Under the pieces are notes generated by a model, which saw only the letters and a program-made list of their open reading frames with translations, did no database searches and was not told where the DNA came from. This document shows positions 1-21,036 of a stretch of 25,603 nucleotides of DNA, piece after piece. The stretch lies in the IMG/VR virus record IMGVR_UViG_3300020159_001388, positions 1 to 25,603 of that record. The stretch is one strand, 5' to 3'. The translations under genes and the position numbers were made by a program. Within the stretch, counting starts at the first letter, position 1, and every line of letters starts with the position of its first letter. The stretch comes from a virus.

Positions 1-3000
1 ACAAGTATTAACCCTGACAAAAACCCTGAATGGGACGATTTTTCAAATGCGTTGGCATTTAAATTATGTGGAGATGTTCATAACCCGCAAATAGGTGTTA
101 GAATTTTAAGATTCACTGGCGATTGTGTAACGACAGGTAGTTGTTCAACTACTGGCATCACATATCAAACAGGATATACTGTTGACAACTTATGTACACC
201 TAACGGAATATACTATTTTTGTGAAAATACCAATCCTGATTTTTTGATTCGAGAACATTGGATTCAATTAGATTTAGTTTGGGAAAGATATACTTGGTTT
301 GATACTTGTGATTTATGGTATAGAGGTGGGTTAGGTTTAATTACCGATAACCCATATTTGTTTTCATTAGTTAATCAGTCTACAAAATTAATACAACCTC
401 CTATAACAAGTACTGATTCATCACCCGCTGAAAAAATTGAAGTTGTTAGATTAAACGAGCGATGGTTAATTGAAAAAGATTATAGAAAAGGTAGGTTAAA
501 GGTTTATGTTAATGGTAGAATTTTCCATACATTTGAAGATATTGAAGAAATAATACCAAGAGCGTTAGATACTGAAAAAGAAAGACAAGTAGGGGTACCG
601 TATAATATTTCTTGGGGAGGAGGAACTCAAGGGTTACATAATAATTTAACTTTTACAGGATGTCCTGAATCTTTAAACGGATTAGTATATCAACAGGACC
701 CTGAATGTTTACCAAATAATATTTTAAGCGGAACTTCATTATCGGCATTAACCACAAATATTTTATTAGAACAAAATTTTGCAGGAAGTTTTGATGGTGC
801 AATATCTCAATTTAGAATGTATACTGAACCATTATCTGCGGATGAGGTAAAACATAACTTTTTATTATTAAAAGATAAATTTGAATTATTTAACAATGAT
901 TGTCCTAATTGTATTCCTCCAACTCCAACCCCAACAAATACACCAACACCAACATTAACCCCAACAAATACACCAACACCAACATTAACCCCAACAAATA
1001 CTCCAACACAAACATTAACCCCAACAAATACTCCAACACAAACATTAACCCCAACAAATACTCCAACACAAACATTAACCCCAACATTAACCCCAACAAA
1101 TACTCCAACAAATACTCCAACAAATACTCCAACATTAACCCCAACAAATACTCCAACAAATACACCAACACCAACATTAACCCCAACAAATACACCAACA
1201 AATACTCCAACAAATACACCAACAAATACACCAACAAATACTCCAACATTAACCCCAACAAATACTCCAACAAATACACCAACACCAACATTAACCCCAA
1301 CAAATACACCAACACCAACATTAACCCCAACAAATACTCCAACAAATACACCAACACCAACATTAACCCCAACAAATACTCCAACACCAACACCAACTCG
1401 TACACCTATACCTTGCACAAAATGGATAACTTGGACGGGAGGTACTGGTGGTAATTTTACGGGTACAACCATTTCACTAAATTCGACTTCATCGAGCCCA
1501 ACATATATGCAGCCGTTGGTTTTGTATACTCCATTAGTATGTCCTGATAAAAATCCAAATACTAATGTTCAAAGTATTTTTAATGCTGATACATACACAT
1601 ATACTTTCTCAGAATCTGTACTTAATCCGTTATTGGCAATATATTCATTAGGAAATACTGTACCAACTACAGTAACAATGTCAGCTAACACACCATTCTC
1701 AATTTATTGTGATACGGTTAGTAACCCTAGTTATCAAATCACATACGACCTCCCAAATCAAACTTTAACTGGTACGGAAGGTTATGGTATTATTCAATTT
1801 AGTGGTTTAACTAACCAAATTATTTTAACACTTAGTGCATATGAAGCTTATACACAATTAACTTGGGGATTACCATTTCCATGCCCTTCTTCCACACCAA
1901 CTCCAACCCCAACATTAACACCAACAAATACTTCAACAAATACACCAACTCCAACATTAACACCGACTCCAACATTAACACCAACAAATACTCCAACACA
2001 AACAGTAACTCCAACATTAACTCCAACAATAACTCCAACAAGAACACCAACTCCCACCCCAACACCAACATTGGGAACATTAATGCAAATGTATATAAAT
2101 ACTAAGGATACAACGGGTGCTCAATTAGGTATAAAAACTATTTCATATGATGTTTATGTAGATTGGGGGGACGGCTCACCGATTGATTTATTTAATGCTG
2201 GAGCTCCATTTACTACTATAACCCATAATTATTCTCCTGCGACCAATAATACAATAGTTATTAGTTCAATTGATTTATCGACTATTGACGAATTAGTTGT
2301 GGGAAGTTCTGGTTCTACGAACTTATATATGTTTACCACGGAAATTGCTAAAGCAATTTCGTGTCAATTATTTAGTGGGGGAACTGATGTTAATGTTTTT
2401 GGAAACGTTGTAGATTTACCAACTAGTTTAATAACTTTTTGTAATTTGTCGGGTGGTATATCAGGAGATACCGGTAATATACCTTTATCAATTACTTCGT
2501 TCGAATCAAGAGGTGAAAACGCCTTATCTGGTGACTTTGCTAGTTGGGCATCAACTAGTATTATTAATTTTGCGGTTACAGGAATAAATACTATTGACGG
2601 AGATACAGCGTCAATACCTAGTACGATACAAAGTTTAGAACTTGGTGGTCTTAATACGGTATATGGTGATATTGGAGACTTACCAACAGGTTTAATCAAT
2701 CTTCAATTAAGTGGTAATACAACTGTGAGTGGAAGCACTCAAGATTTTCCACCAAATATGGAAGTGATAGTTATAGGTGGAACTAATACTGTATTTGACA
2801 GGATTCAAGCTTTACCATTAACAGCGACTTATGTTAGGATTGAAGGTAATAATACGTTATTTGGTGATTTATCAAAAATACCTCCGAATATTATTTATTT
2901 TGTTATTACAGGAGATAATACAATAACGGACTATAGTACACCAAGAACACCTGGATGGGCTCCTAATTTTCAAACTTTATATATTAATTCTGCTTTTTCA

Positions 3001-3186
3001 GGGTTTAAGGTTGGTCAAGTTGACCAAATATTAACCGATTTGGCAGCAACTAGTTGGGATAAATTTGGAATTTTAGAAATTATAGGAGTAGATAATCCTA
3101 AATATACTAACACTACAGATTTTAATATTTTAGATTTGGGAGCTCCTCCAGTAAACAATCCATTGACGGTATTATCAATTTTATAA
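1..3186 (+). CDS. Large modular virion/adhesin-like protein, 5'-truncated
   Basis: The frame is open to the left edge, so the gene starts outside the window; the TTG at 52 is not a convincing start. About 1061 residues are visible. In order (residues counted from base 1): a LamG/concanavalin-like region to about 300, ending in a typical [13 protein letters not shown] strand pattern; Thr/Pro tract 306-471; a beta-rich, Cys-bounded module 472-631; a second Thr/Pro tract 632-690; a PKD-like module with VDWGDGSP and THNYS; and about eight 22-residue LRR-like repeats to about 981. PKD followed by LRR resembles BspA-type surface proteins. No membrane segment or sortase motif is seen. Its place beside phage structural genes and glycosyltransferases suggests a tail-fibre or other surface-exposed virion protein that binds a host or a glycan. 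The exact role is inference. Confidence 0.8.
916..1413 (+). repeat. Thr/Pro tandem repeat tract 1 (mucin-like linker)
   Basis: In-frame low-complexity DNA encoding about 166 residues built from [12 protein letters not shown] and TQTLTP blocks. At 931-1080 there are five consecutive 30-bp units: two copies of one variant, then three identical copies of another. After that the unit length becomes irregular (multiples of 6 and 12 bp). Nearly every proline codon is CCA, so the DNA itself is homogenised. The open frames on the other strand here are shadows of the repeat. Confidence 0.95.
1894..2070 (+). repeat. Thr/Pro tandem repeat tract 2
   Basis: A second tract of about 59 residues in the same gene, made of TPTLTPT, TNTPTP and TQTVTP blocks. 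It is less regular than tract 1. Like tract 1 it follows a Cys-containing motif (PFPCPSS here, CPNCIPP before tract 1), so linker plus module looks like a repeated building block. Confidence 0.9.
2413..2943 (+). repeat. LRR-like protein repeats, about eight 22-residue units
   Basis: The translation shows about eight units of 22-23 residues with the pattern (L/I/F)P-x2-(I/L)-x2-(L/F)-x-(L/V/I)-x-G-x-NT-(V/I)-x-GD. Examples are [19 protein letters not shown] and [19 protein letters not shown]. The DNA is diverged, so this is an old protein-level repeat. It predicts a solenoid fold suited to binding protein or glycan. Confidence 0.7.
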
Positions 3187-3389: not shown

Positions 3390-4640
3390 ATGAAAATATT
3401 CATTCAAATCGCCTCTTATCGCGACCCACAATTAATCCCAACAATTAAAGATGCTATTGATAAAGCTAAGAATCCAAAAAATTTAGTTTTTTCAATTGCC
3501 CGACAGTTTCATCCTGATGATAAATTTGATGATTTATCCGAATATGAAAATGACGATAGATTCAGAATTACAAATATTCCTTATGAGGAATCAAAAGGTG
3601 TTTGTTGGGCACGACACATAACCCAACAATTATATCAGGGAGAAAAATATACAATGCAAATTGATTCTCATATGAGATTTGAAAAGAATTGGGATAAAAC
3701 CTTAATTGATATGATTAAAGGTTTACAAAAAAAAGGATATAAGAAACCATTATTAACAAGTTACGTATCTTCCTTTGACCCTGAAAACGACCCTAACGGT
3801 AGAGTTAATGTTCCTTGGAGAATGTCTTTTGATAGATTTATTCCTGAAGGTGCGGTATTCTTTTTACCTGAAACAATACCAGGTTGGGAGACTTTAACAG
3901 AACCAGTACCGTCAAGATTTTATTCCGCCCACTTCGCATTCACAGTAGGACAATTCTCAAAAGAAGTTCAACACGACCCCGAATTTTATTTCCACGGAGA
4001 AGAAATTTCAATCGCGGCCAGAGCTTATACTCACGGATATGATTTATTCCATCCACATAAAGTTGTTGCTTGGCATGAATATACTCGTAATGGTAGAACT
4101 AAGCAATGGGACGACGATATAACTTGGGGTGAAAAGAATTCAAGAGCTCATGCAAAGAATAGACGACTATTCAGTATGGATGGTGAAGTGTTTGACACTA
4201 AGGAGTTTGGTATTTTTGGGTTTGGTACTGAAAGAACGTTAAAAGATTATGAAAAATACTCAGGACTTCTTTTTGGTAAAAGAGCGGTACAACAATATAC
4301 TTTGGATAAAAAGTATCCTCCAAACCCTTACCTTTATGAGAACGATGAAGAATGGATGAATAGTTTCTCATCTATTTTTAAACATTGTATCGATGTTTCA
4401 TTTTCTCAAGTTCCTGAAAAAGATTATGATTTTTGGGCTGTTATTTTTGAACGAGACGGTAATCAAGAATTATTTAGAAAAGATGCAGATAAAACTGAGA
4501 TTGAAAGGATTATGTCGGATAAAGATGGGTATTGTAAGATTTGGAGAGAATTCCAAACTGCGGAAAAACCAACTAAATGGGTGGTTTGGCCGTACTCAGT
4601 ATCTAAAGGATGGTGTGATAAAATTGAAGGAAATTTATAA
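3390..4640 (+). CDS. GlcNAc-transferase-like glycosyltransferase (PF11397 type)
   Basis: 416 residues, GT-A fold. Features of the GlcNAc family (relatives of the Skp1 hydroxyproline GlcNAc-transferase) are the start IFIQIASYRDPQL, the metal/nucleotide motif MQIDSHMRF with D92-S-H94 followed by NWD, the FHGEEIS segment (E204/E205), and HEYTR at 229-233. In the known family these enzymes transfer GlcNAc from UDP-GlcNAc to hydroxyprolyl protein; donor and acceptor here are not known. No signal peptide or membrane segment is seen, so it should be cytosolic. It is the first gene of a packed five-gene run and starts about 200 bases after a protein with long Thr/Pro tracts, a possible acceptor. The ATG at 3390 has no Shine-Dalgarno. 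Confidence 0.85.
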   Translation: MKIFIQIASYRDPQLIPTIKDAIDKAKNPKNLVFSIARQFHPDDKFDDLSEYENDDRFRITNIPYEESKGVCWARHITQQLYQGEKYTMQIDSHMRFEKNWDKTLIDMIKGLQKKGYKKPLLTSYVSSFDPENDPNGRVNVPWRMSFDRFIPEGAVFFLPETIPGWETLTEPVPSRFYSAHFAFTVGQFSKEVQHDPEFYFHGEEISIAARAYTHGYDLFHPHKVVAWHEYTRNGRTKQWDDDITWGEKNSRAHAKNRRLFSMDGEVFDTKEFGIFGFGTERTLKDYEKYSGLLFGKRAVQQYTLDKKYPPNPYLYENDEEWMNSFSSIFKHCIDVSFSQVPEKDYDFWAVIFERDGNQELFRKDADKTEIERIMSDKDGYCKIWREFQTAEKPTKWVVWPYSVSKGWCDKIEGNL

Positions 4641-4646
4641 AAAAAT

Positions 4647-5357
4647 ATGGAATATGCGATAGCGACTTTTTGTTATGGTGATATATACTATAATCAGACT
4701 AATAGAATGATAGAATCATTTAACCAATTATCTGACCCCCCACAAATTTTTATAGTTACAGATAACCCTGACGCAATAACCAAAAAAAATTTTGTTAATG
4801 TTAAAAATATTTCGGAATATAATCCAAAATATTCTGAGTATAATAAAGACTATTATACTTTTGATTTTTCAGTTAAAAGATTTTCATTATTATTTGCTTT
4901 TGATTCCGGATATAATAATGTTATTTTAACAGATACCGACGCAATGGTTAATCAACAAATATTTTCTCACGAACGAGTTATGGAATGTTTTATACCAAAC
5001 TCAATATCAGGACAAGTAACCTATAACTTTAATAACGAAATTACTACTAATAGTATGTTAGGTGAAAGATTACTTCGTTACGAAGATGTTTTTAAAGTTT
5101 CGTTTAATAAAGAAGAACTAACAGAAATGACAGAAGACTGTATACAATTCATTTCAATTGAGAGTAATTTAAAATATAAATTTCTTGAGGTGTGGGATAA
5201 GTGTATTAAAATAAAAGATTCTGAATCTCTCCCTAATATTCCTGCAGGAAATATCGATGAGATGTGTTTTTCAGCACTATACAATGGAATTAAAGTTTTA
5301 AATAATTCAAATAAACATATTAATTTATTAACCCCAACACACAACAAATGGTATTAA
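4647..5357 (+). CDS. Putative GT-A type glycosyltransferase
   Basis: 236 residues. The beta-strand plus DxD arrangement NVILTDTDAMV (D96-T-D98) and the start IATFCYGDIYYNQTNRMIESF are typical of small nucleotide-sugar-dependent GT-A enzymes. The C-terminal part has NIDEMCFSALY, a likely acceptor-side helix. I cannot assign a specific family. It begins six bases after the previous gene and overlaps the next by ten bases, so co-translation is likely. Confidence 0.65.
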   Translation: MEYAIATFCYGDIYYNQTNRMIESFNQLSDPPQIFIVTDNPDAITKKNFVNVKNISEYNPKYSEYNKDYYTFDFSVKRFSLLFAFDSGYNNVILTDTDAMVNQQIFSHERVMECFIPNSISGQVTYNFNNEITTNSMLGERLLRYEDVFKVSFNKEELTEMTEDCIQFISIESNLKYKFLEVWDKCIKIKDSESLPNIPAGNIDEMCFSALYNGIKVLNNSNKHINLLTPTHNKWY

Positions 5358-6823
5358 AAATAGTTACATCAATTTACGAATTAAATTATGAAAATTTAAG
5401 AGGCGGAGGAGTATATAAGGGATTCCAACTACTAACAGAAACAATACGAGCACTTATATTTGACGAATATGAATACGTGATTTATACTAATAAACACACT
5501 TATGATAAACATCATTTAAGTGAAGTATTCAACCGTCCTAACATAACAATTAAAATTCAAGAATTAAATTCTGATTTTTATACTACAAAAATTAACCCAA
5601 TTAGACAAGATAGATTTTCTAAAGGAGAGATTTATGATAGAATTTACTCAGTGTCAAACTATATGGAAGTTATTTTAAATAAAATAAAACATATTGTTGA
5701 CGAATCAAATCTTAGTAATGAAGATGATTCAGTTATTTGGTTAGATTCAGGATTATTTGGAACTAGTTGTCATAATGTTTGGAGAGATTATATTAAAACA
5801 ATTGTTTATGATAAATTCTTTTTAGATAAAATTTTTGAAAAAGTTAATGAAAATGGTTTTATTGCAACCAAAGGTAAAGAAATTTTAATTAATTATGAAT
5901 TAAAAGATAGAATCGCTTTAATGTGTGATGAAGGTTCAAATATTAATATAATCCCCGGTTGTTTATTTGGGGGTAAAGTAAAAAATAATTTAGACTTATT
6001 ATCTAATTATGAAAATCATTATTTAAATTATATTACAAAAAACAACGAATTAGTTAGTGAACAAGAACTTTTATTTATGTTAACTAATAATAAAAATGTT
6101 AAGTTTTTTGAATTTGGCGATTGGCTTGATTTACAAAAAGCGTTTTTACAAATCCTTGATTTATATGATGAAAAAAAATATAAAATTGATAGTATTTTAG
6201 GGTATCAAACAAATAAAAATCTTGAGGATATTGTTGATGAGGACATTACATTCAATAATTTTACTGAATTATCTGATAAATTAGGTATTGATAAAGGGTC
6301 TATACACGAAAACCATATGTATAGTGAGGTTTATGAAAAAATGTTATCAAAGTACATTGGTGGAGAACCTGTAATAATTGAAATTGGTATACTTGACACT
6401 AGATTTCCTGGTGGATGTTTAAAATTTTGGGACTTAATATTCCCTAATATGAAATATTATGGGTTTGACATTATAGATTGTAATCATTTAAAATATAATA
6501 GAGATAAAATTACTACGGTTATTGGTGACCAAAATAACCCTGAAGATTTAATGAGTATGATTAATACGTATGATTTATCTGGTAAAATAGATTTTATTAT
6601 AGATGATGGTAGTCATATTTCGGAACACATAATAACTAGTTTTAAAACATTATACCCTCACATAAAAAAAGGAGGTTATTATTTTATTGAATCTTTACAT
6701 GCCGGATATGCTGAAAGAGATAATACTATGTCGACAATAAATTCAATTATTAACGAATACGGTTTTGAGGTCACCACAAAAGAATTGGTTAATAATGATA
6801 AATTATGGATAATAACTAAATAA
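5348..6823 (+). CDS. Fusion: HtrL/YibB-like glycosyltransferase domain + SAM methyltransferase
   Basis: 491 residues in two parts. Residues 1-290 resemble the HtrL/YibB (WlaTC) family seen in surface-polysaccharide loci: start VTSIYELNY, then VIYTNK and the acidic strand SVIWLDSGLFG with D133. Residues 305-491 are a class I SAM-dependent methyltransferase of the macrocin O-methyltransferase/Methyltransf_24 kind: LGIDKGSIHENHMYSEVYE, SAM loop IIEIGI (343-348), YYGFDI, then metal-site type IIDDGSH (417-423) and KKGGYYFIES. This suggests one protein that adds and O-methylates a sugar, which is inference. It overlaps the previous gene by ten bases and the next by one (TAATG). Confidence 0.75.
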   Translation: MVLKIVTSIYELNYENLRGGGVYKGFQLLTETIRALIFDEYEYVIYTNKHTYDKHHLSEVFNRPNITIKIQELNSDFYTTKINPIRQDRFSKGEIYDRIYSVSNYMEVILNKIKHIVDESNLSNEDDSVIWLDSGLFGTSCHNVWRDYIKTIVYDKFFLDKIFEKVNENGFIATKGKEILINYELKDRIALMCDEGSNINIIPGCLFGGKVKNNLDLLSNYENHYLNYITKNNELVSEQELLFMLTNNKNVKFFEFGDWLDLQKAFLQILDLYDEKKYKIDSILGYQTNKNLEDIVDEDITFNNFTELSDKLGIDKGSIHENHMYSEVYEKMLSKYIGGEPVIIEIGILDTRFPGGCLKFWDLIFPNMKYYGFDIIDCNHLKYNRDKITTVIGDQNNPEDLMSMINTYDLSGKIDFIIDDGSHISEHIITSFKTLYPHIKKGGYYFIESLHAGYAERDNTMSTINSIINEYGFEVTTKELVNNDKLWIITK

Positions 6824-7500
6824 TGAAAATACAAATATTTTATCATATTTTCTTAATTACTAATTGGTATGATATTGTAAAAGAACAAATTGATTCATTA
6901 TCTAATTCTAAGTTGTTGGAAGTATCAACATTAAATGTTGGAGTTCTTTTTGATAAACAAATTGATTCTGAAAAAGAAAAGTTAATGGAACTTTTATCTA
7001 AAGTACCAAGTCTTAATTTAATGTTTATTGATGAAAATGTTTCGTTTGGAGAATCAAAAACTTTAATTAAACTTAAAGAATTCTCAATGACTGATACTAA
7101 TAATACCAACATTCTTTATCTCCATACTAAAGGAGTTACACAACATAATTCAGTTAGGGAAAAACCTGTTAAAGAATGGAGATTAATGATGGAACATTTT
7201 TTAATTACTAATTGGGAAAAATGTGTTGAGAAATTAAATAACGAATTTGATTGTTGTGGGATAAATTACCAAGACCACGCAGGTAATGTTAAAGGTGTAA
7301 CAAAATTAATTCAAATTTTCAATGGTAACTTTTTTTGGACCAAATCTGATTACGTTAAAAAATTAGATGGGTCTATTTTATTTGAACATAGATATTCCTC
7401 AGAGAATTGGATTTTAAGTTCAGAACATAAAGCATACACATTTCTTAATGTTCCTCCTATTTTTGACCTATATTATAACATATACGAAAATTATAAATAA
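6823..7500 (+). CDS. Putative glycosyltransferase (HTKG-motif family)
   Basis: 225 residues. The landmarks are NILYLHTKGV (HTKG at 101-104), WRLMMEHFLITNWEKC, a CGINY segment, and FNGNFFW at 167-172 followed by a Tyr/Leu helix. This set recurs in small proteins of polysaccharide loci and large DNA viruses and is consistent with a GT-A-like enzyme lacking a classical DxD. There is no signal peptide. Its start overlaps the previous stop by one base (TAATG). Confidence 0.55.
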   Translation: MKIQIFYHIFLITNWYDIVKEQIDSLSNSKLLEVSTLNVGVLFDKQIDSEKEKLMELLSKVPSLNLMFIDENVSFGESKTLIKLKEFSMTDTNNTNILYLHTKGVTQHNSVREKPVKEWRLMMEHFLITNWEKCVEKLNNEFDCCGINYQDHAGNVKGVTKLIQIFNGNFFWTKSDYVKKLDGSILFEHRYSSENWILSSEHKAYTFLNVPPIFDLYYNIYENYK

Positions 7501-7530
7501 AAATTATAACTAAAAATAATAACTAAAAAT
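7492..7530 (+). promoter_or_regulatory. Candidate late promoter with 13-bp direct repeat before the three-domain gene
   Basis: TATAAATA at 7492-7499 matches the T4 late promoter consensus exactly and lies 32 bases before the ATG at 7532. Between them ATAACTAAAAAT occurs twice (7506-7517 and 7519-7530). In such AT-rich DNA the 8-mer is expected several times by chance, so this is only a candidate. Confidence 0.3.
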
Positions 7531-7531
7531 T

Positions 7532-9847
7532 ATGCCATATAGTACCGGATATTTTAAAACAGAAACCAAAGATTATATTTTAAAAAATTACCCAAAAGAC
7601 GTTAGAATTTTAGACGTTGGTGCGGGTTGTGGAACTTACTCAGACCTATTAAAACCATTAGGGTATACTAATATTGATTGTGTTGAGGTTTTCCCTGAAT
7701 ACGTATCTCAATTTAATTTAAAAGAAAAATATAATAATGTTTTTATTGGTGATATAACCAAACTCACTTTAGATTTTAACAACTACGATTTAATTATTTT
7801 TGGGGATGTATTAGAACATATCACTCTTTCAGAGTCTAAGAAATTATTAGAAAAAATTAATGAAAAATCTATACTGATTGGGATTCCATTTGAATCTCCT
7901 CAGGGGGAACATTTTGGTAATATTTACGAAACACATTTGCAACCGGATTTAACTTTAATTAATTTTATTGAGGAGTATCGGGGATTCCACCCAATCTCGG
8001 TAAGATTTGATTATGGTATTTTTATAAATAAACAAGAAAATGATATCTTTGTTGAGGTGGGTCAATTTCAGTTACCTGAGAATTATGATAATTATTTAAA
8101 AAACAATTATAAAGAAAGTAATTTCATTTATTTAAATGGTGAGGCCCCTCAAACTAAAGAAACTCAAAATGTGACAATTGTCACCGCGTTGTGGAATTTA
8201 GGTCGAGACAATATTAATGATTCATTTAAAAGAAGTTACAATAGTTACTTAGATAAATTTAGTGAGTTATTAAAAACTGATGTTAATATGTATATTTTTA
8301 TTGATAAATCCGATGAGGAATTTATTTGGAAGTATAGAGATAAGAAAAATACGGTATTAAATTTTATGTCTTTAGATGAATTAAAAGAGTGGTTTAATTT
8401 TACAAATATAACTAATAAATTAAGGGTTAATGAAGATTGGTTAAATCAAGCATCTTGGTTAAGGGAATCTCCACAAGCTACTTTAGATGGTTATAACCCA
8501 TTAGTTATGAGTAAAATGTTTATGTTAAACAACGTAACAATTTGGAACCCTTTTAATAGTGAATATTTCTTTTGGATTGACGCTGGTATAACTAATACGG
8601 TTCATTACGGATATTTTACTCACGATAAAGTTTTTAATAATCTACCTGAATTTATAGACAATAATGAGGATTTTGTATTCTTGACTTATCCTTATGAAGG
8701 TGGTGGTGAAATACACGGTTTTCAAAGAGAACCAATGGCAACTTACTGTAATACAGATTATGTTAAATTTGTATGTAGAGGAGGGTTTTTTGGTGGTAAA
8801 AAGGAAAGGATTAATGAAATAAATGGTTTGTATTATATGTATTTAAACACTACCCTTAATGATAATCTAATGGGTACTGAAGAAAGTGTTTTTACTATTT
8901 TACTATATAATCACCCTGATTTAATAACTCAATATAGTGTTGAGTCTAACGGTATGATTTGGCCATTTTTTGAGGATTTAAAAGATAAAAAATATAAAAA
9001 AAATGTTATAGTAACGTCACCTAAATTTATTCTAAATAATACAAAAGTTGGTCTTTATGTAATTACTTTCAATTCACCAAAACAATTTGAAGTATTAATA
9101 CAATCAATGTTAGATTATGATGCAGATTTCATTGAAAAACCAAGAAAATTCTTATTAGATAATTCAACAGATTTATCAACAACACCACAATATATTGAAT
9201 TATGTGAAAAGTATGGTTTTGAACATATTAAAAAAGATAATATTGGTATTGTTGGGGGTAGAGTATTTGTTGCAGAACATTTTAATGAGACTGATTTAGA
9301 TTTTTATTATTTTTTTGAAGATGATATGGGGTTTTACCCTAAAAAAGGTGAAGTTTGTAGAAATGGGTTTCCTCGTTATGTCGATAATTTATATCAAAAA
9401 TCATTAGAGATTATTCAAAAAGAAAATTTTGATTTTTTAAAATTAAATTTCAGTGAATTTTTTGGTGACCATAGTGTACAGTGGAGTTGGTATAATGTTC
9501 CACAAGATTTTAGACAATCTCATTGGCCAAATAATCCTAAATTACCTGTACAAGGATTAGACCCTAATTCCCCTAAAACAAAATTTGATGAAATACATAT
9601 TTACAAAGGATTACCATATATAACAGGTGAATCCCATTTATCGAATTGGCCGATTGTATTAACAAAAGAGGGTAATTATAAATGTTATTTGGAGACTAAA
9701 TGGGCTCATCCTTACGAACAAACTCTTATGTCGTACGCTTATCAAGAAACTGTTAAAGGAAATATTAAACCGGGACTATTGTTATTAACACCAACCGAAC
9801 ACGTTCGATTTGATTTTTATGACGGAAAATTAAGAAAAGAATCTTAA
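7532..9847 (+). CDS. Three-domain fusion: SAM methyltransferase + HtrL/YibB-like GT + GT-A glycosyltransferase
   Basis: 771 residues. Residues 1-170 form a class I methyltransferase with SAM loop ILDVGAGCGTY (26-36) and FGDVLEH (90-96). Residues about 213-490 are HtrL/YibB-like: VTIVTALWNLGRD, NPLVMSKMFML, and FFWIDAGIT with D350. Residues about 505-771 are another GT-A-like domain: VGLYVITFNSPKQFEVLIQSM, an acidic metal motif FFEDDMGF (E596-D597-D598), FLKLNFSEFFGD, and a C-terminal TGESHLSNWPIVLTKEG. It probably makes or finishes a methylated oligosaccharide with the four upstream genes. Substrates cannot be read from sequence. The last four bases overlap the convergent HNH gene. Confidence 0.8.
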   Translation: MPYSTGYFKTETKDYILKNYPKDVRILDVGAGCGTYSDLLKPLGYTNIDCVEVFPEYVSQFNLKEKYNNVFIGDITKLTLDFNNYDLIIFGDVLEHITLSESKKLLEKINEKSILIGIPFESPQGEHFGNIYETHLQPDLTLINFIEEYRGFHPISVRFDYGIFINKQENDIFVEVGQFQLPENYDNYLKNNYKESNFIYLNGEAPQTKETQNVTIVTALWNLGRDNINDSFKRSYNSYLDKFSELLKTDVNMYIFIDKSDEEFIWKYRDKKNTVLNFMSLDELKEWFNFTNITNKLRVNEDWLNQASWLRESPQATLDGYNPLVMSKMFMLNNVTIWNPFNSEYFFWIDAGITNTVHYGYFTHDKVFNNLPEFIDNNEDFVFLTYPYEGGGEIHGFQREPMATYCNTDYVKFVCRGGFFGGKKERINEINGLYYMYLNTTLNDNLMGTEESVFTILLYNHPDLITQYSVESNGMIWPFFEDLKDKKYKKNVIVTSPKFILNNTKVGLYVITFNSPKQFEVLIQSMLDYDADFIEKPRKFLLDNSTDLSTTPQYIELCEKYGFEHIKKDNIGIVGGRVFVAEHFNETDLDFYYFFEDDMGFYPKKGEVCRNGFPRYVDNLYQKSLEIIQKENFDFLKLNFSEFFGDHSVQWSWYNVPQDFRQSHWPNNPKLPVQGLDPNSPKTKFDEIHIYKGLPYITGESHLSNWPIVLTKEGNYKCYLETKWAHPYEQTLMSYAYQETVKGNIKPGLLLLTPTEHVRFDFYDGKLRKES

Positions 9848-10509
9848 TTTAATATTTTATTACTTTTTTTCAAATTATCTTCAGCCCATAGTGGTTGGAG
9901 ATTTGTGTAATGACAAAGTTTATATATTTCTTCCTCAGTATTTGCTGAAGATAATGGTATAATGTGGTCTATATGAATATGTTGTCCCATTAACTCCCAA
10001 GACATATCTTCAGTAAATTGTTTTTCAATATATTCTTTAAGAAATTCCGGAGAACAACCTACAATTTCAAAAGATGTTTTTGTTTTATTTCTTAAAACTG
10101 AATAAATTCTTGTTCGGACATTAAAAATTAATTTTTTTAATGGGTCAGTTTTTCTTTGTTCTTTAATTCTATTGTTATAATATTCTCTAATTTTAGTTAT
10201 ATTTTTTTCCGTCCATATTTTATTATTTTCTTTATGTTTTTCTTTATTTAAGTTATACCAATTTTTATTTAAGTTTCTAACTTTTTCTGTATTATTTTTA
10301 TAATATTTTTTATTATATTCAGGATTTTTATCATACCACTTTTTAAGTGTTAAAGCTCTTTTTTCTGAGTTTTGGTTACGATAAATATCACCTTCAAGTT
10401 TACGACATTCTTTACAAATGTTTCTCAATTTGTCTTTAGTTGTTTTATGTTTTCCAAAATCACAAACCTCTTTTTCTTCTTGACATTTACGACATATCTT
10501 TTTTTCCAT
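9844..10509 (-). CDS. Free-standing HNH homing-type endonuclease 1
   Basis: 221 residues. The N-terminus carries a CxxC...CxxC zinc site (C6, C9, C32, C35). A long Lys/Asn/Tyr-rich linker follows, then the catalytic HNH core HIHIDHIIPLSS (H179, D181, H182) with N203 in TNLQPLWAEDNLKKSNK. The last 73 residues match the second HNH gene (17076-17669) at 62 positions by my count; the middles have diverged. The ATG lies inside the 3' end of the RHH gene (23-base overlap), so it is probably translationally coupled. Base composition is more A/T-rich than the polymerase gene nearby. It is likely a mobile, intron-less homing gene. Confidence 0.9.
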   Translation of the reverse strand: MEKKICRKCQEEKEVCDFGKHKTTKDKLRNICKECRKLEGDIYRNQNSEKRALTLKKWYDKNPEYNKKYYKNNTEKVRNLNKNWYNLNKEKHKENNKIWTEKNITKIREYYNNRIKEQRKTDPLKKLIFNVRTRIYSVLRNKTKTSFEIVGCSPEFLKEYIEKQFTEDMSWELMGQHIHIDHIIPLSSANTEEEIYKLCHYTNLQPLWAEDNLKKSNKILN

Positions 10510-14307: not shown

Positions 14308-15420
14308 TTAAATTACGTATATTTGTCTTGGCATTGCTCTATACTTCATTGCCTTATTTAAATTTTCAGCGATTAACGCTTCTTTTTCCATCATCTTTTC
14401 AGGTCTTAATCTTTCAAGACGAGCCATTAATTCTTCTTGTAATTTCGCTCTTTCATCTTTACCCTCAGTTAACAAACTTGTATAATCCATAGTAAGTTCA
14501 CTATCAGGTGTTTTTAAGTTACCACTATATTTTCCTCTAACTCTTCCTAAAGTTTCTTTACACAATCCAATGAACCATCTTCTAACCCATTGTTGTGCAG
14601 GGTTATTCAAATCTACCCAAGAAATTTCATCAATCGGAACGTCAGATGGTAATTTCACAATATCAGGATTCGCTTTTAAACAAGCATCTCTATCAGCACC
14701 GTCAACGTCGTAATACCAATACCAAACTTTACCACCTGCCATACTTCCACTACCAAAGTCAAATTTACCGCCAGGAGTGTTCATTAAATGTATCATCTTT
14801 TTACCATCAGGTAAAGCGGTTATTCTATAAGTTAAATCTCCACCCAAGATACGTCTTTGTATGTTTGTTTCTTGCATTCTTAACAACATATCAAATGCCG
14901 GCATCATTGTGTACGAACCTGAATAACCCAATTGAGCGAATCCTCCTGTTCCACCAAGTCCAGGTCCACCCATAGCACCAAATGCAAATGGGTCAAAAAG
15001 AACATTGGTTAATGTTGGGGGGGTAAACCAAAGTAATTCATTGATTTCTCTTCCTTTAGGTATTTCATATAATTGTTGTCCTCTAACTAAATCAAAATAA
15101 TCTTTTTTCAAAACCCAATCCCCACCAGCTTGTAACCCAACAATTTTAGAATATGCGTAAGAATATCTTGTTTCATAATCTAAACTTCTCGTAATAAACG
15201 CTCGAGTTAGAGATTGCTCGTCTAAATTAAGATTCTGAAGTGCGGACCATTGAGATTCAATTAACCAATCTTGGATATATTGTGAATAGTCCCCAATTGA
15301 TAATTCAAGTAATGAATCTAACATTTCGTCTTCTAATTCAACACTTCTTAACGGAGCTCCAAGTAAATGTTTAACTCTCGTATATAGTTTTGTTCTTTGT
15401 GGTTCAGCTATTATTCCCAT
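14308..15420 (-). CDS. 13: Neck (head-tail connector) protein, gp13-like
   Basis: 370 residues, against about 309 for T4 gp13. The N-terminus (TRVKHLLGAPLRSVELEDEMLDSLLELSIGDYSQYIQDW) and the block DLVRGQQLYEIPKGREINELLWFTPP look like the helical-plus-beta layout of T4-type gp13 neck proteins. A Gly-rich insertion (FGAMGGPGLGGTGGF) follows. The end is charged and helical (ERAKLQEELMARLERLRPEKMMEKEAL). gp13 seals the filled head and joins it to the tail with gp14. The assignment also rests on gp14-, gp15- and gp18-like genes nearby, in T4 order though on the other strand. It overlaps the SOD-fusion gene by ten bases. Confidence 0.6.
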   Translation of the reverse strand: MGIIAEPQRTKLYTRVKHLLGAPLRSVELEDEMLDSLLELSIGDYSQYIQDWLIESQWSALQNLNLDEQSLTRAFITRSLDYETRYSYAYSKIVGLQAGGDWVLKKDYFDLVRGQQLYEIPKGREINELLWFTPPTLTNVLFDPFAFGAMGGPGLGGTGGFAQLGYSGSYTMMPAFDMLLRMQETNIQRRILGGDLTYRITALPDGKKMIHLMNTPGGKFDFGSGSMAGGKVWYWYYDVDGADRDACLKANPDIVKLPSDVPIDEISWVDLNNPAQQWVRRWFIGLCKETLGRVRGKYSGNLKTPDSELTMDYTSLLTEGKDERAKLQEELMARLERLRPEKMMEKEALIAENLNKAMKYRAMPRQIYVI

Positions 15421-17072
15421 ATTATGTTTTCTGATAAATATTTGTTACAATCAATTAATTTCAAATCATTAGAACCAACTAATGTCATAATTTCATTTTG
15501 TTCTGGAATTACGAATGTATTTTTATCGATTTTAACACCATTTGTTTTATAAATCTTAACAGTTTTACTTTTAACATTAACAAATATAATAATATCAACT
15601 TTCTTATATTCTTGGAGACTTGACGAACCTTGTATTGAAAAACTACCATCTGGTAATTGTTTTACAATTTGAAAAGGTTTAATTTGTCCAGTTAATGATT
15701 GGTTATTTATAGTCACAGTAGCATCAATTCCTGATAACATATCTGAAGTACTACCTGCACCTGCTTGAATTTCACAAGCACCTTCACCTAAATGTTGGTT
15801 AATAATTTTCATTGCGGCATCTTCATTTCGTTTACCTAAACAATCGGTTCTTTTTAAGATACCCCCTATTTGTTTTAAAGTATTAGATTGTGTTGCTCTA
15901 TTAAAAATTTGTGAACGAAGTCCATCTAAAACTGAAAAGAATCTTTTTAATTCTAATAAATTTATTTGTGGGTCGTTACCATATTCTATTTTAGGTTGTC
16001 CATTTTGAGATAAATATTCATTAATGTCTTTATGAATAACACAAAATGCGGAGTATGACGAGGTTAAATTCATTAATAAAGACCTAACACTTTGTTTGTC
16101 GTACAAACCTGCCTCGTGACCAACGAATAATGAGTTTTTATCTCTCCAATTTTGGGGGTATTCTTTTTTAAGTATATCCATCCACCCTTGGACATAGTCG
16201 TACTTAAACTTCTTGAAGATATACGGTAAATCACTAGATGGGAATAGTAAGGATTTAAATTTAAGTTCCTCACTATGAGAACAACTTTGAGACTTTATTT
16301 CCGATTCCGTTAAAATATCTTGAGATGAACTATTCATTAATTGCATCATAACTATTTCTTCATCAATACGAGTTTCAACTTTCATTTTATAAAGTTTTTC
16401 AACAAACTCCCAATTAACAACTTCCCAAAAGTTTTTAACATATTCGTCTCGTTTATTTCTGTATTTTAAATAATAAGCGTGTTCCCATATATCTAATCCA
16501 AGAATTGGATACCCACCATTTTTAACGTCATTCATTAATGGATTGTCTTGATTTGGTGTTGACATAATCTTTAAAGAATTGTTTTTGGTAATTACTAACC
16601 AAACCCATCCCGAACCAAATTGTTCTTTTGCAATGGCATTAAATTGTTTCTTCAAACCTGCAAGACTTCCAAAGTCTTTTTCAATTCTTTTTATAACTAA
16701 TCCTCCTGGTTTTTGTTTGGTGGGTGATAACATTTTCCAAAATAATGCGTGATTGTAAGCACCTCCGGCATTATTTCTAACATCATCATTAAATCTACTA
16801 ATTGTTTTAACTATTTGTTCTAAATCTAAATCTCCGAATTTTTTCTTATCTAAGGCTAAGTTTAATTTTTCCACATAACCTTTGTAGTGTTTGTTATAGT
16901 GGACATCCATAGTTTCAGGGTCAATAAATCTTTTAAGGGAACTGTAGGAATAAGGTAATTTTTCAATACCTATTTTTTTCATTTCATTAATGAAAAATTT
17001 TTGGGCGAAGTCACGTTCATTTTTTTGAACCTCTTCTTTTAACTCTTCAATCTTGTTTACTAAGTTTCTCAT
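15411..17072 (-). CDS. Fe/Mn superoxide dismutase fused to a PD-(D/E)XK nuclease-like C-terminus
   Basis: 553 residues, more than twice a normal SOD (about 200). Residues 38-230 are a full Fe/Mn SOD: LPYSYSSLKRFIDPETMDVHYNKHY (ligand H58), GGAYNHALFW (H108), FGSGWVWLV, and LDIWEHAYYLKYRN (D194, H198), then VNWEFVEKLY. All four metal ligands are present, so activity (superoxide to O2 and H2O2) is plausible. Residues about 240-410 are helical and not recognised. Residues about 412-553 carry E417, GIDATV (D450) and GQIKP (Q463-x-K465) between beta strands, matching a PD-(D/E)XK nuclease in its QxK form. It overlaps the neck gene by ten bases and follows HNH 2. No frameshift is seen; the fusion is one frame. 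Confidence 0.8.
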   Translation of the reverse strand: MRNLVNKIEELKEEVQKNERDFAQKFFINEMKKIGIEKLPYSYSSLKRFIDPETMDVHYNKHYKGYVEKLNLALDKKKFGDLDLEQIVKTISRFNDDVRNNAGGAYNHALFWKMLSPTKQKPGGLVIKRIEKDFGSLAGLKKQFNAIAKEQFGSGWVWLVITKNNSLKIMSTPNQDNPLMNDVKNGGYPILGLDIWEHAYYLKYRNKRDEYVKNFWEVVNWEFVEKLYKMKVETRIDEEIVMMQLMNSSSQDILTESEIKSQSCSHSEELKFKSLLFPSSDLPYIFKKFKYDYVQGWMDILKKEYPQNWRDKNSLFVGHEAGLYDKQSVRSLLMNLTSSYSAFCVIHKDINEYLSQNGQPKIEYGNDPQINLLELKRFFSVLDGLRSQIFNRATQSNTLKQIGGILKRTDCLGKRNEDAAMKIINQHLGEGACEIQAGAGSTSDMLSGIDATVTINNQSLTGQIKPFQIVKQLPDGSFSIQGSSSLQEYKKVDIIIFVNVKSKTVKIYKTNGVKIDKNTFVIPEQNEIMTLVGSNDLKLIDCNKYLSENIIWE

Positions 17073-17075
17073 ATT

Positions 17076-17669
17076 TTAGGCTATTTTGTTTATAATAAAT
17101 ATCTTATTACTTTTTTTTAAGTTATCTTCCGCCCATAATGGTTGTAGGTTAGTATAGTGACATAACTTAAATATTTCTTCCTCTGTCTTTGCGGAAGATA
17201 ATGGGATTATGTGGTCAATATGAATGTATTTACCCATTAATTCCCAAGACATACCATCTGTGAATTGATTCTCAATATGTTCTTTTAAAAATTGAGGAGT
17301 ACAACCAATAATTTCAAATGTTTGACTTCTCTTTGTAATATAATTGACATCTAAAAATCTTTTTAACCTTCGTCTAACATTTTTTATTAATTTAAAGGTA
17401 GGGTCAATTTTTTTTCTTTCTGTTGTATATCTTGGATTATTTTTTCTCCACAATCTATTTCTTTCTAATATTATATCGTGGTTTTTTTCTTTATTTTCGT
17501 TATAATATTTTTTAGCCTTTTCTTTTTTTGCCTCAGAATTATTTGCACGGTAAATTAATTTACGACATTCTTTACAATAAACATAATAACCATCACATCT
17601 TTGTTTATCCTTTGGGAATTCACAAATATATTTTTTTTCTTTACACTTACTACAAATCTTTGTTTCCAT
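17076..17669 (-). CDS. Free-standing HNH homing-type endonuclease 2
   Basis: 197 residues and a paralogue of the endonuclease at 9844-10509. It has an N-terminal zinc site (CSKCKEKK, then CKEC), a Lys/Asn-rich linker shorter than in copy 1, and the core YIHIDHIIPLSS (H150, D152, H153) with N174 in TNLQPLWAEDN. The catalytic third is far better conserved between copies than the DNA-recognition parts, as expected if targets differ. The ATG overlaps the RHH gene end by 20 bases. Its stop is three bases before the SOD-fusion start. Confidence 0.9.
   Translation of the reverse strand: METKICSKCKEKKYICEFPKDKQRCDGYYVYCKECRKLIYRANNSEAKKEKAKKYYNENKEKNHDIILERNRLWRKNNPRYTTERKKIDPTFKLIKNVRRRLKRFLDVNYITKRSQTFEIIGCTPQFLKEHIENQFTDGMSWELMGKYIHIDHIIPLSSAKTEEEIFKLCHYTNLQPLWAEDNLKKSNKIFIINKIA
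17092..17106. repeat. 15-bp direct repeat, copy A (HNH 2 cassette downstream edge)
   Basis: ATAATAAATATCTTA in the last codons of HNH 2. The same 15 bases recur in the same orientation at 17813-17827, just before the paired RHH gene. The two copies bracket the RHH-HNH cassette. Confidence 0.6.
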
Positions 17670-17849: not shown

Positions 17850-17870
17850 TCCTAAAATTATTTTTTAGGA
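17850..17870. other. Hairpin over the SNF2 gene stop codon
   Basis: TCCTAAAA at 17850-17857 pairs perfectly with TTTTAGGA at 17863-17870 around a five-base loop that contains the SNF2 gene stop. No T run follows on the minus strand, so a classical terminator is unlikely; an mRNA end or processing structure is possible. Confidence 0.3.
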
Positions 17871-19630
17871 TTTATTTTATTCATAATGTTCGCAACAAAA
17901 TCTCCTTTATCCTCTAAATCATCACCCATAACGGTATTAATATTTAATTTTTTTTGATTTATCATATCGTATATAATACTTTCTATAGAATTAATGAAGA
18001 TTGGGTAATAAACGGATACCGAATTTTTTTGCCCATATCTGTATGCTCTGTCTTCAGCTTGTGATAAATCACCCGGAACAAAAGATAAGTCATTCATTAT
18101 AACCGCTTCTGCTGCGGTTAGTGTTATTCCAGTTCCCGCCGCTCGAATATTCCCAACAAACACTTTGATTTTTTCGTTATTTTGGAATTCATCAATAGCG
18201 TATTGTCTTTGAGGTTTTGACGTTGAACCGTCTAACTTAACCGATTGTTTCCCAAAATGTTCAGCAATCTTGTTTAATGTTTCTGTAAAGTTGGTAAAGA
18301 TTATGACTTTTTTGTCTTGTTCTAAAATATTTTCAGCCAATTCTATTGTGTCTTTTATTTTTTCTTCGGCAATCACTTGACGAACTTTCATTAACTTACT
18401 GAACTGAACTGTTAAAGATGTTGATTCATCTGGATTCTTATTATACCAATCGTAATATTCTCCCATTAATCCTTCATAAAGTTTTGAGTTTAATCTCAAA
18501 TAAATTGGTGTGATAATTTTTTCGGGTAAATCTAACACTTCCGTTTTTAATCTACGTAAAAATTGTCTTGAGGTTCTGTCTCTTAATTCTTCTAAATTAG
18601 ATGCTCCGGTTACATTCCATATTTTACGAGTTCCTGCGGTGAACTGATAACCCTGACAATATCTTACAGCATATGCTAACCAATTCTGAGCTACAGGACT
18701 CTCAATAAGTGCCAATAGATTAAAGTAATTCATTGGACGGTTAGTCATCGGTGTTCCGGTTAATAACCACACTCTCTCACAACTTTTAGAAAAACTATTA
18801 ACTAATTTGGTCCTCGCGGCTTGTCCGTTACTTACATAATGAGCCTCATCCAAAATAATCAAATCAAAATTACCTTGAGTGATTAAAGACTCTGACTTAC
18901 CTTTGATGTCGTAAAAGTTTTTAAGAATATCATAATTAATAATTACAAAATCGTGTTCTGTTGAGAAGTTCTTCCCTTCGCAGATATAAACACTTCTGTC
19001 CGTATAATTCTGAATTTCCCTCATCCAATTAATCTTCAAAGATGCTGGAGAAATGATTAGTATTTTTTTAACCCCCGTCTCCAAGGCGGCAATAATTGTA
19101 GAGGTTGTTTTACCCAATCCCATATCATCGGCAAGGATAAATCTTTTACATCCTACTAATTTTTCGATAGCCTCTTTTTGGTGATTAAGCGGGGGACGAT
19201 GAGAATATTTTGAGTAATCTATTTCAACCTTTTCAACATTATGGGTTTTAATCACAGCACCTTTCGGTAACCAAAATTCGTGTAATTCTTCATTTTCAAA
19301 CACCTTGCCCCAAATGTGATATGACTTGTCTTTTTCAACTAAAAGTTTTTCAATCCAAATTTGTTCGGGAACTTTAGTATACAATTTTTCATCGGCAATC
19401 TTCTGAGCAAAGTATGGGTCTAAATTAACCCATTTCTTAGCCACTTTAGGGACAACGTTAAAATAATTTACAATATATTCTGATTGGGCTCTTGTGGGGT
19501 AGAATTTTTTATTCAACTCCTGTTGACGTTTTAATCTCATCAGATAGTTGTTTGCACCACTATACGACTCAAGAATTTCGAGTGCTTTTTGTTCTAACAA
19601 CGGTTTAATTTCTTGGTTTTTTATTTCCAA
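17858..19630 (-). CDS. SNF2-family DNA-dependent ATPase/helicase
   Basis: 590 residues. Two RecA-like domains with all main SF2/SNF2 motifs: ADDMGLGKTT (Walker A, 167-176), LIISPASLKINW (Ia), DEAH (261-264), LLTGTPMTNRP (III), KVIIFTNFTE (IV), GTGITLTAAEAV (V) and QAEDRAYRYGQKNSV (VI, 524-538). An alpha-helical N-terminus of about 130 residues precedes. The layout resembles compact SMARCAL1/HepA-like translocases; T4 UvsW has a different motif VI. It likely remodels DNA during replication or recombination. The apparent start is TTG at 19630; no in-frame ATG exists upstream before a stop, and the first internal ATG is residue 31, so the true start is uncertain. Confidence 0.9.
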   Translation of the reverse strand: MEIKNQEIKPLLEQKALEILESYSGANNYLMRLKRQQELNKKFYPTRAQSEYIVNYFNVVPKVAKKWVNLDPYFAQKIADEKLYTKVPEQIWIEKLLVEKDKSYHIWGKVFENEELHEFWLPKGAVIKTHNVEKVEIDYSKYSHRPPLNHQKEAIEKLVGCKRFILADDMGLGKTTSTIIAALETGVKKILIISPASLKINWMREIQNYTDRSVYICEGKNFSTEHDFVIINYDILKNFYDIKGKSESLITQGNFDLIILDEAHYVSNGQAARTKLVNSFSKSCERVWLLTGTPMTNRPMNYFNLLALIESPVAQNWLAYAVRYCQGYQFTAGTRKIWNVTGASNLEELRDRTSRQFLRRLKTEVLDLPEKIITPIYLRLNSKLYEGLMGEYYDWYNKNPDESTSLTVQFSKLMKVRQVIAEEKIKDTIELAENILEQDKKVIIFTNFTETLNKIAEHFGKQSVKLDGSTSKPQRQYAIDEFQNNEKIKVFVGNIRAAGTGITLTAAEAVIMNDLSFVPGDLSQAEDRAYRYGQKNSVSVYYPIFINSIESIIYDMINQKKLNINTVMGDDLEDKGDFVANIMNKINPKK

Positions 19631-19678: not shown

Positions 19679-20194
19679 ATGAGTCAAAATAAAATACCAA
19701 TTACAAGGTTAGGAAAATTTTTTGGTGGTGAAGATTTCAACTTAGAGGTTGAAATGGGTAGGGAGTGGTTAGAAGGTGATATGAATTTTACTTTAATATT
19801 ATATCGTGTTGATAGATACCGTTCTAGCACTGACGACGTTTATGGTGAAACTGTCTCGGACGGTATTAAATTTCAGTCTCCTGTGGAGTTTAAGGCTCTT
19901 GTTCAAGTAATGGCTCCTGAGAATAAATTTATGGGTAGTTCCAAGATTGAACAGTTTGAGCCAGGTAACATTCGTATATCGGTATATCAATCACAACTTG
20001 AAGAATTGGGTATTGATATTGAATATGGAGACTATATTGGATACTACGAAACGGAAACAAGAGTTAGATACTATGTGGTCAATAATGATGGTAGAGTTGT
20101 CTCAGATAATAAACATACGTATGCGGGTTTTAAACCATTTTATAGAACTATTATGGCATCACCTGTAAGTGCCAACGAATTTAGAGGATTATAA
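19679..20194 (+). CDS. Neck protein, gp14-like (tentative)
   Basis: 171 residues, shorter than T4 gp14 (256). YGETVSDGIKFQSPVEFKALVQ, a long beta region, IDIEYGDYIGYYETETRVRYYVVNND and FKPFYRTIMASP recall the GD-IYF and PFYQ blocks of T4 gp14. It sits where gp14 should be in T4 order, before the gp15-like and sheath genes. gp14 completes the neck with gp13. The assignment is partly by context. The stop shares one base with the next ATG (TAATG). Confidence 0.5.
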   Translation: MSQNKIPITRLGKFFGGEDFNLEVEMGREWLEGDMNFTLILYRVDRYRSSTDDVYGETVSDGIKFQSPVEFKALVQVMAPENKFMGSSKIEQFEPGNIRISVYQSQLEELGIDIEYGDYIGYYETETRVRYYVVNNDGRVVSDNKHTYAGFKPFYRTIMASPVSANEFRGL

Positions 20195-20487
20195 TGAAAA
20201 TATTAATTACAGAATCACAAATAGAGGTATTACGAAGAGTATACGAAATAAGTGACCTTGTTGATTACGTTATTCATCATTTGAATAATGAGATTAGAAG
20301 TGGGGGTCCAGGTAATAAACCCGACAATTTTGGAGTATATGAAAATTGGGTTGCCCAAAGACTTAGTGATAGTTTCCAACGTAGACACCCTAACATTGAT
20401 TATAAAAAAATAGATTTTTTAAGGATAATATCTGCGGTGTATAACGATAAACTAAAATTAGGGTTCAAATACTCGAGAAAAAACTAA
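20194..20487 (+). CDS. Small phage protein with MKILITESQ leader
   Basis: 97 residues, mostly helical and basic, with a conserved-looking GGPGNKPDNFGVYENW turn. The N-terminus MKILITESQ is nearly the same as that of the next gene (MKIFITETQ) although the remainders are unrelated. No known domain. It is coupled to both neighbours by one-base TAATG overlaps, so it is probably co-expressed with neck and tail genes. Confidence 0.6.
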   Translation: MKILITESQIEVLRRVYEISDLVDYVIHHLNNEIRSGGPGNKPDNFGVYENWVAQRLSDSFQRRHPNIDYKKIDFLRIISAVYNDKLKLGFKYSRKN

Positions 20488-20642
20488 TGAAAATATTTAT
20501 AACGGAAACCCAGTATAAAAAAATAATTGAAACTGTCACAAATAAAGAAGTAATTTGTGACAATTGTGGTTGGTCTTGGGATTTATCTGAAGGTGGTGAC
20601 GACCCATATATTTGTCATAAATGTGGACACGATAATGAATGA
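20487..20642 (+). CDS. 51-residue zinc-ribbon protein with MKIFITETQ leader
   Basis: A short gene. After the leader, CDNCGWSWDLSEGGDDPYIC and HKCGHDNE form two CxxC knuckles separated by a Gly/Asp-rich loop, a treble-clef or zinc-ribbon-like zinc site. The ATG overlaps the previous stop by one base and its end overlaps the next start, so the small gene fits a continuous operon. This ribbon is also familiar as a C-terminal tail of other phage proteins, so it may be a portable module. Role unknown; metal binding is very likely. Confidence 0.75.
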   Translation: MKIFITETQYKKIIETVTNKEVICDNCGWSWDLSEGGDDPYICHKCGHDNE

Positions 20643-21036
20643 AAAAGATTTAAAAGGTGAAAAAGTTATGGTTCATTATAACTTACATAAACATACTTTT
20701 TCAGTGACTTACAAATCACGGGTTATAATGAACGCCGATTATGTTAAATTAACTAACGTTGAATTTAGAGTTAGACAAGGTGGGAAGAATAAAGTTAGAG
20801 AAGAAAAAAATAAAAACGTACACGCCTTTGTTATTGGGGAATTAGTCAATTATTGTAAATACCCTTGTGAAAACATACCACAGGAATCAAACGATAATAT
20901 TGTCACATACGACCCTTACAAATATGATAGTTTTGTTTACAAATCAACAGAACAACCAATATACGGAGCCAAAGAGGTTGATATGATTAACCAAAAGAAT
21001 AAATTATTCGTAATTAACGAAATTTTAAAATATTAA
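20635..21036 (+). CDS. Conserved hypothetical phage protein
   Basis: 133 residues from the ATG at 20635, which overlaps the zinc-ribbon stop. An in-frame ATG at 20557 would add 26 residues entirely inside the zinc-ribbon gene and is less likely. It has a beta-rich, basic first half (VMVHYNLHKHTFSVTYKSRV, VEFRVRQGGKNKVREEKNKNVHAFVIG) and a Tyr/Asp-rich second half. No catalytic motif is recognised. It lies one base before the gp15-like gene. Confidence 0.6.
   Translation: MNEKDLKGEKVMVHYNLHKHTFSVTYKSRVIMNADYVKLTNVEFRVRQGGKNKVREEKNKNVHAFVIGELVNYCKYPCENIPQESNDNIVTYDPYKYDSFVYKSTEQPIYGAKEVDMINQKNKLFVINEILKY

Follow-up and report, generated by a model that had tools for sequence, protein, structure and literature searches.

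A superoxide dismutase–nuclease fusion of uncultured T4-like phages, a candidate head-packaged cargo polyprotein

The fused gene and its relatives

The DNA analyzed here is the IMG/VR virus record IMGVR_UViG_3300020159_001388, positions 1 to 25,603 (25,603 nucleotides, hereafter the window), and the gene under study is a 553-amino acid open reading frame (ORF) on its minus strand, with an ATG start, no internal stops and a single frame, in which a superoxide dismutase (SOD) precedes a predicted nuclease (Table 1). An earlier account of this DNA made from its letters only, below called the sequence-only reading, had suggested a search for the fusion in other phages, and hundreds of relatives were identified in IMG/VR. 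In total, 598 candidates were confirmed and the best 80, with 44–95% identity over the full length, were kept; independent metagenomes contain this full-length fusion at identities between 95% and about 44%, so the single frame is not a product of chance. The same neck gene follows within 100 nucleotides in 76 of 79 loci, and the gene order SNF2 helicase, neck, small protein, PolB was constant in the loci listed. Synonymous changes greatly outnumber non-synonymous ones in both the SOD half and the nuclease half (dN/dS of 0.03–0.10), and purifying selection acts on both. Because of this selection and the recurrent neck gene, the fusion is not an assembly artifact; two separate genes joined by an assembly error, a concern raised in the sequence-only reading, are excluded by the conserved full-length fusion and its synteny in independent metagenomes. 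That reading had also placed the gene directly between a mobile HNH cassette and the neck gene. The neck side of this context was borne out, but the HNH gene at 17076–17669 is not present in L001, a relative with 95% identity, and is therefore a local insertion whose proximity is incidental.

No relative of the fusion was confirmed in bacterial and archaeal genomes at the sensitivity used, where one degenerate pattern only was seen. A set of 50,697 phage records gave matches to the SOD part only, and to this part the likeness between other phage records and the window protein is confined. The best match in BFVD, a 501-amino acid protein from an uncultured phage, is named only superoxide dismutase, and family members are therefore already in databases under that name. 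No description of a SOD–nuclease fusion was found in the open literature searched.

Table 1. Features of the SOD–nuclease gene and its immediate surroundings in the window.
Feature	Position	Strand	Remarks
SOD–nuclease gene (candidate polyprotein), whole	15411..17072	−	553 amino acids
N-terminal leader, residues 1–30, ending I28-N29-E30, first putative prohead-protease site	16983..17072	−	E30 in 61/61 relatives; I/L at 28 in 97%
Fe/Mn superoxide dismutase domain, residues 36–229	16386..16967	−	Ligands H58, H108, D194, H198; Mn-type G104, Q175
I236-D237-E238, second putative protease site, right behind the SOD	16359..16367	−	[I/L]xE in 61/61
L254-T255-E256, third putative protease site, ahead of the nuclease	16305..16313	−	At least two linker [I/L]xE per relative; linker pLDDT below 50
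Helical region and predicted PD-(D/E)XK-type nuclease, residues 264–531	15480..16283	−	Alignments, AlphaFold2, Foldseek
Catalytic motif span E417...D450...Q463-x-K465	15678..15824	−	Invariant in relatives
TATTTAT, candidate promoter element	17095..17101	−	23–29 nucleotides 5' of the start codon; also at gp21, gp22-like and portal genes
Neck protein (head-tail adaptor, PHROG 211), next gene downstream	14308..15420	−	10-nucleotide overlap; syntenic in relatives
SNF2-type helicase, conserved upstream neighbor	17858..19630	−	Profile match and synteny

Superoxide dismutase domain

Pfam assigned Sod_Fe_N to residues 36–116 (E 1.5e-21) and Sod_Fe_C to residues 126–226 (E 5e-40), and a PDB sequence search gave 162 distinct sequences at E values up to 0.01, all 60 of the 60 listed being SODs. 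The metal ligands H58, H108, D194, and H198 are invariant in 61 distinct relatives, in which G104 of the GGxxNH motif and Q175 of the NQD motif are near-invariant; we take a glycine and a glutamine at these places to be second-shell residues of the Mn type and not of the Fe type. Judged by its sequence, the domain is a complete, Mn-type Fe/Mn SOD that is predicted to dismute superoxide, and the sequence-only reading was right to describe a complete enzyme with these four ligands in one frame. The full fold, the ligands, and the Pfam match are common to this domain and other Fe/Mn SODs, including the phage SODs of the PA5oct group and of freshwater phages.

C-terminal nuclease

The C-terminal part had earlier been read as a nuclease from the order of E417, D450, and Q463-x-K465. 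These positions proved correct, and none of the four residues varies among the 61 fused relatives or among 52 non-redundant homologues, some of them with other architectures. In an alignment of 33 diverse members, without the SOD, few columns are invariant, among them E417, D444, D450, Q463, K465, and P466. The fold check proposed at that time was carried out: AlphaFold2 modeled residues 236–553 with a predicted local distance difference test score (pLDDT) of 84, with values below 50 only in the linker (247–260), and a trimmed nuclease core built from 53 sequences reached a pLDDT of 90. With both models, Foldseek searches of the PDB returned I-Ssp6803I (2ost; E 2.0e-4, probability 1.00), the SPARDA nuclease, NhoI, and Hjc as top matches, at modest TM-scores of 0.4–0.5. 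We assume all four to be members of the PD-(D/E)XK superfamily, with which the C-terminal part shares the predicted core fold and the order E, D, QxK, the third motif being a QxK variant of (D/E)xK. It differs from these nucleases by a helical N-terminal region of its own, by the conserved G-x3-D-x3-G-x-D and QxKP signature, and by the lack of a credible sequence-level match in Pfam or the PDB. For the C-terminal part, Pfam and PHROG yielded chance matches only (LcrV, E about 0.007), and a PDB sequence search with the nuclease profile gave two matches, both spurious. The models and alignments support a PD-(D/E)XK-type nuclease with predicted cleavage activity, the superfamily being well supported and no close family being assigned.

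Many freshwater phages carry genes for defense against reactive oxygen species (ROS), SOD among them, which have been read as protecting the infected host (PMC6802176). These genes, together with the invariant catalytic residues of the SOD, would suit a plain auxiliary gene directed against oxidative stress, e.g. the oxidative burst of a grazer, in which the C-terminus serves as a DNA-binding tether without real nuclease activity. We find this improbable, as a mere tether would not need four catalytic residues that are invariant over 52 diverse homologues, and nuclease-only alleles persist at the locus, as described below.

A modular slot upstream of the neck gene

In order to lessen search bias, the slot upstream of the neck gene was surveyed from the neck gene and not from the fusion. 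Among 139 distinct neck alleles, the slot held SOD and nuclease in 67, nuclease alone in 18, SOD alone in 14, SOD, nuclease and a further region in 12 (one cut by the contig end), an HExxH domain with SOD in 12, HExxH, SOD and another module in 7, the same three with nuclease in 3, SOD with another module in 2, and an unrelated protein in 2, and was empty in 2 (L258 and L261); the labels come from profile matches and lengths, and rare classes may shift (L269, for example, is a split fusion). The longest slot proteins, with three or four modules, are those of L293 (909 amino acids) and L450 (958 amino acids). In 22 relatives, HExxH is followed by a conserved NEDEA-like stretch, which has no Pfam match and is not in the window protein. 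The HExxH...NEDEA module is N-terminal in the slot proteins of L314, L311, L320, L359, and L450, and those of L311, L314, and L320 carry FDV...CK in an extra C-terminal module, perhaps another nuclease.

In the nuclease tree, nuclease-only genes are nested in the fused group twice, the best explanation being that the SOD was lost on two occasions, and the nuclease-only gene of L145 retains a remnant of the SOD border, SINEMKKIEIEKL. No other SOD was found on four contigs, of up to 318 kb, with a SOD-less gene. The earlier suggestion of one enzyme that couples ROS handling to DNA cutting is not supported, given these apparent losses, in which the nuclease was kept, and the existence of SOD-only and other combinations. 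A mobile homing-type nuclease that became joined to a phage SOD gene was also considered, with the homing endonuclease I-Ssp6803I as the top PDB fold match and with two empty slots as points in its favor. This origin is very improbable and was ranked low: the nuclease is vertically conserved in one slot, with relatives down to about 30% identity in the nuclease domain, the module is also found at other loci with a head-type N-terminus, and it is the neighboring HNH gene that is truly mobile at this locus.

Putative prohead-protease sites at the joints

The T4 prohead protease gp21 has the cleavage motif L/I-X-E (PMC9026906). In the 61 fused proteins, [I/L]xE is conserved in exactly three columns, at E30, at E238, and within the SOD active-site motif DxWEH. 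E30, directly before the SOD, is present in all 61, with I or L at P3 in 97%, and all 61 likewise have [I/L]xE at E238, directly after the SOD; the linker of up to 35 residues holds at least two such motifs in each protein. In 47 non-redundant slot proteins, the motif was enriched before the SOD (113 observed, 55.8 in shuffled sequences, standard deviation 5.8) and after it (83 and 29.2, standard deviation 4.7) and depleted inside it (57 and 83, standard deviation 8.8), and in 21 fused proteins the ratios of observed to shuffled counts were 2.2 before, 2.9 after, and 0.31 inside, where the expectation comes from shuffles of the same segments and, related sequences not being independent, the counts are a guide and not probabilities. 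The additional joints of longer proteins follow the same pattern, e.g. LNKLITESKLKKIIITEEQ in L293.

An uncut bifunctional enzyme acting late in infection, in which the SOD would lower ROS while a Hjc-like nuclease resolves or repairs phage DNA prior to packaging, could draw on the Hjc resolvases among the fold matches, on the SNF2 helicase and PolB genes that the gene adjoins, and on the purifying selection on both halves. Such an enzyme leaves the invariant [I/L]xE at the joints unexplained, however, and the two apparent losses of the SOD with the nuclease kept, as well as the SOD-only alleles, argue that joint action is not needed; we regard it as rather unlikely. The invariant [I/L]xE sites at the SOD–nuclease joint point away from a coupled bifunctional enzyme and suggest that one precursor releases two cargo proteins.

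Head genes, paralogues, and a promoter motif

Among the long relatives, a gp21-type protease (Peptidase_S77) was found in seven of 13 and gp23 in eight of 13; many are fragments, so the non-hits may reflect that. The gp23 of the relatives has a conserved LINE-A at residue 60, and its first 62 residues, used as a positive control, contain five [I/L]xE where 1.4 were expected. The nuclease core was identified in three further proteins: a zinc-ribbon/gp82-like fusion encoded a few genes away from the SOD–nuclease gene, a 318-amino acid paralogue encoded between the protease gene and the scaffold and gp23 genes, and a 369-amino acid protein. INPHARED gave no match to the nuclease part or to the head-cluster paralogue. 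The N-termini of the nuclease paralogues read MKxxx[TS]E-Q. N-termini of the MKxx[I/L]TES type, which resemble the T4 capsid targeting sequence, are enriched, at 14% of proteins in G001 (vs. about 2.5%) and 8.8% in G005 (vs. about 2.3%).

In the window, a 97-amino acid protein encoded at 20194–20487 (+) opens with MKILITESQ, a pattern enriched in these phages, and is a candidate head cargo. At 20437–21036 (+), a zinc-ribbon/gp82-like gene (PF25735) is split by a frame change: the zinc-ribbon stretch ending in PYICHKCGHDNE meets a stop, and the gp82-like part continues in another frame. In relatives this gene is in one frame, and some copies have the same nuclease module added.

The heptamer TATTTAT lies about 10–30 nucleotides 5' of 26–32% of the start codons in G001, G003, and G005 (loci L179–L212), with a genome-wide background of about 2% per 50-mer, and is found upstream of gp21, a gp22-like gene, a putative portal gene, and 63 of 67 SOD+nuclease genes. 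In G001, and weakly in G005, it is associated with [IL][TSN]E N-termini; it is probably a phage promoter element and is taken here as a candidate late promoter. The T4-like late promoter TATAAATA was rejected, being exact in only two of 60 fusion loci, where TATTTAT was found instead.

Proposed function and known systems

We propose, with somewhat more confidence than doubt, that a large T4-like phage packages the gene product in its head as a cargo polyprotein, which is processed by a protease and injected. The polyprotein would be made late in infection, enter the prohead core, and be a substrate of the phage's gp21-type prohead protease, with cuts after the [I/L]xE motifs that end at residues 30, 238, and about 256; the Mn-type SOD and the PD-(D/E)XK nuclease would thereby be freed within the head. 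Together with the genome, the two would then be ejected into the host, where the SOD would clear superoxide from the newly infected cell, with the nuclease cutting host or competitor DNA, or branched or modified DNA. Nucleases fused to a capsid targeting sequence have been loaded into T4 heads in active form (PMC3012670, PMC9026906). The other module sets of the slot (HExxH metallopeptidase-like, a second nuclease lineage, and unknown modules) would be expected of an injected-effector locus that exchanges its parts, and the ROS-defense reading of freshwater phage genes is compatible with the cargo model provided that the SOD is active as soon as infection begins. On the wider proposition that large aquatic T4-like phages carry a hypervariable string-of-beads precursor (SOD, nucleases, metallopeptidase, and unknown modules) with prohead-protease sites in between, one gene loading several enzymes that are delivered at infection, we are evenly divided.

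Several observations weigh against packaging and processing of this kind. The family is known from the sequences of uncultured phages, and the protease gene is not in the window. The [I/L]xE motif is short and common, V replaces I/L at the first site in a few relatives (L117, L144), and within the nuclease the motif is about as frequent as in shuffled sequences (ratio 0.99, fused set). The 30-residue leader is unlike the MKxxITESQ form of other candidate cargo, the enrichment of the N-terminal pattern is weak in G003 (4.5% vs. about 3.3%), and TATTTAT as a late promoter is a guess about a candidate element.

The T4 internal head proteins (IPI, IPII, IPIII, and Alt) have a short N-terminal leader ending in L/I-x-E, as has the window protein. 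Like them, the family occurs with T4-like gp21 and gp23 in relatives, the window fragment being without these genes, and forms polymorphic candidate cargo at one locus, Alt being a precedent for a catalytic cargo. In contrast to the T4 proteins, several enzymes would share one precursor with sites between domains instead of a single leader, a SOD and a PD-(D/E)XK nuclease as cargo are features of the window family, and the system is known here from genes alone. Polyvalent proteins combine 2–15 disparate domains per polypeptide, zincin-like metallopeptidase domains among them, in phage late-gene contexts, and have been proposed to be injected with the DNA (Iyer et al. 2017; PMC5512222). Unrelated domains in one phage polypeptide and domain shuffling are common to both, and transfer of the window family into the host is likewise a proposal. 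The zincin-like domain has a possible counterpart only in the HExxH of the 22 relatives. In the window family, the joints look like prohead-protease sites and not only like places of zincin autoproteolysis, and the SOD module is a further difference, the word superoxide having no occurrence in the main text of that paper (PMC5512222). Moraphages, large aquatic T4-like phages of Bacteroidota, resemble the present phage in gene content, with core genes of the same kind (gp13 neck, prohead protease, and PolB) together with glycosyltransferases, and by analogy only, a Bacteroidota host is likely here; superoxide is not mentioned in the paper describing them (PMC12619734). The window family is best read as uniting, in style, the T4 internal proteins with the polyvalent proteins, with the SOD as a new module, pending virion data.

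If this is true, phages inject an antioxidant enzyme and a nuclease, oxidative stress matters from the very onset of infection, and new cargo enzymes can be loaded by way of a precursor that a protease cuts and whose parts are exchangeable. A sequence rule made of MKxx[I/L]TES-type N-termini and [I/L]xE joints would then allow the injected proteins of uncultured T4-like phages to be listed, proteins that are otherwise invisible without virions.

Other genes in the window

The HNH genes at 17076–17669 and 9844–10509, both on the minus strand, are a related pair of local insertions (PHROG 1035, endonuclease VII type), and copies related to the two occupy other places in L009, L135, and L138. Several clustered genes at 3390–9847 (+) resemble glycosyltransferases and methyltransferases, as judged by eye. 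A 1044-amino acid protein encoded at 52–3186 (+) has long repeats, which create spurious ORFs on both strands, and is perhaps a tail or surface protein.
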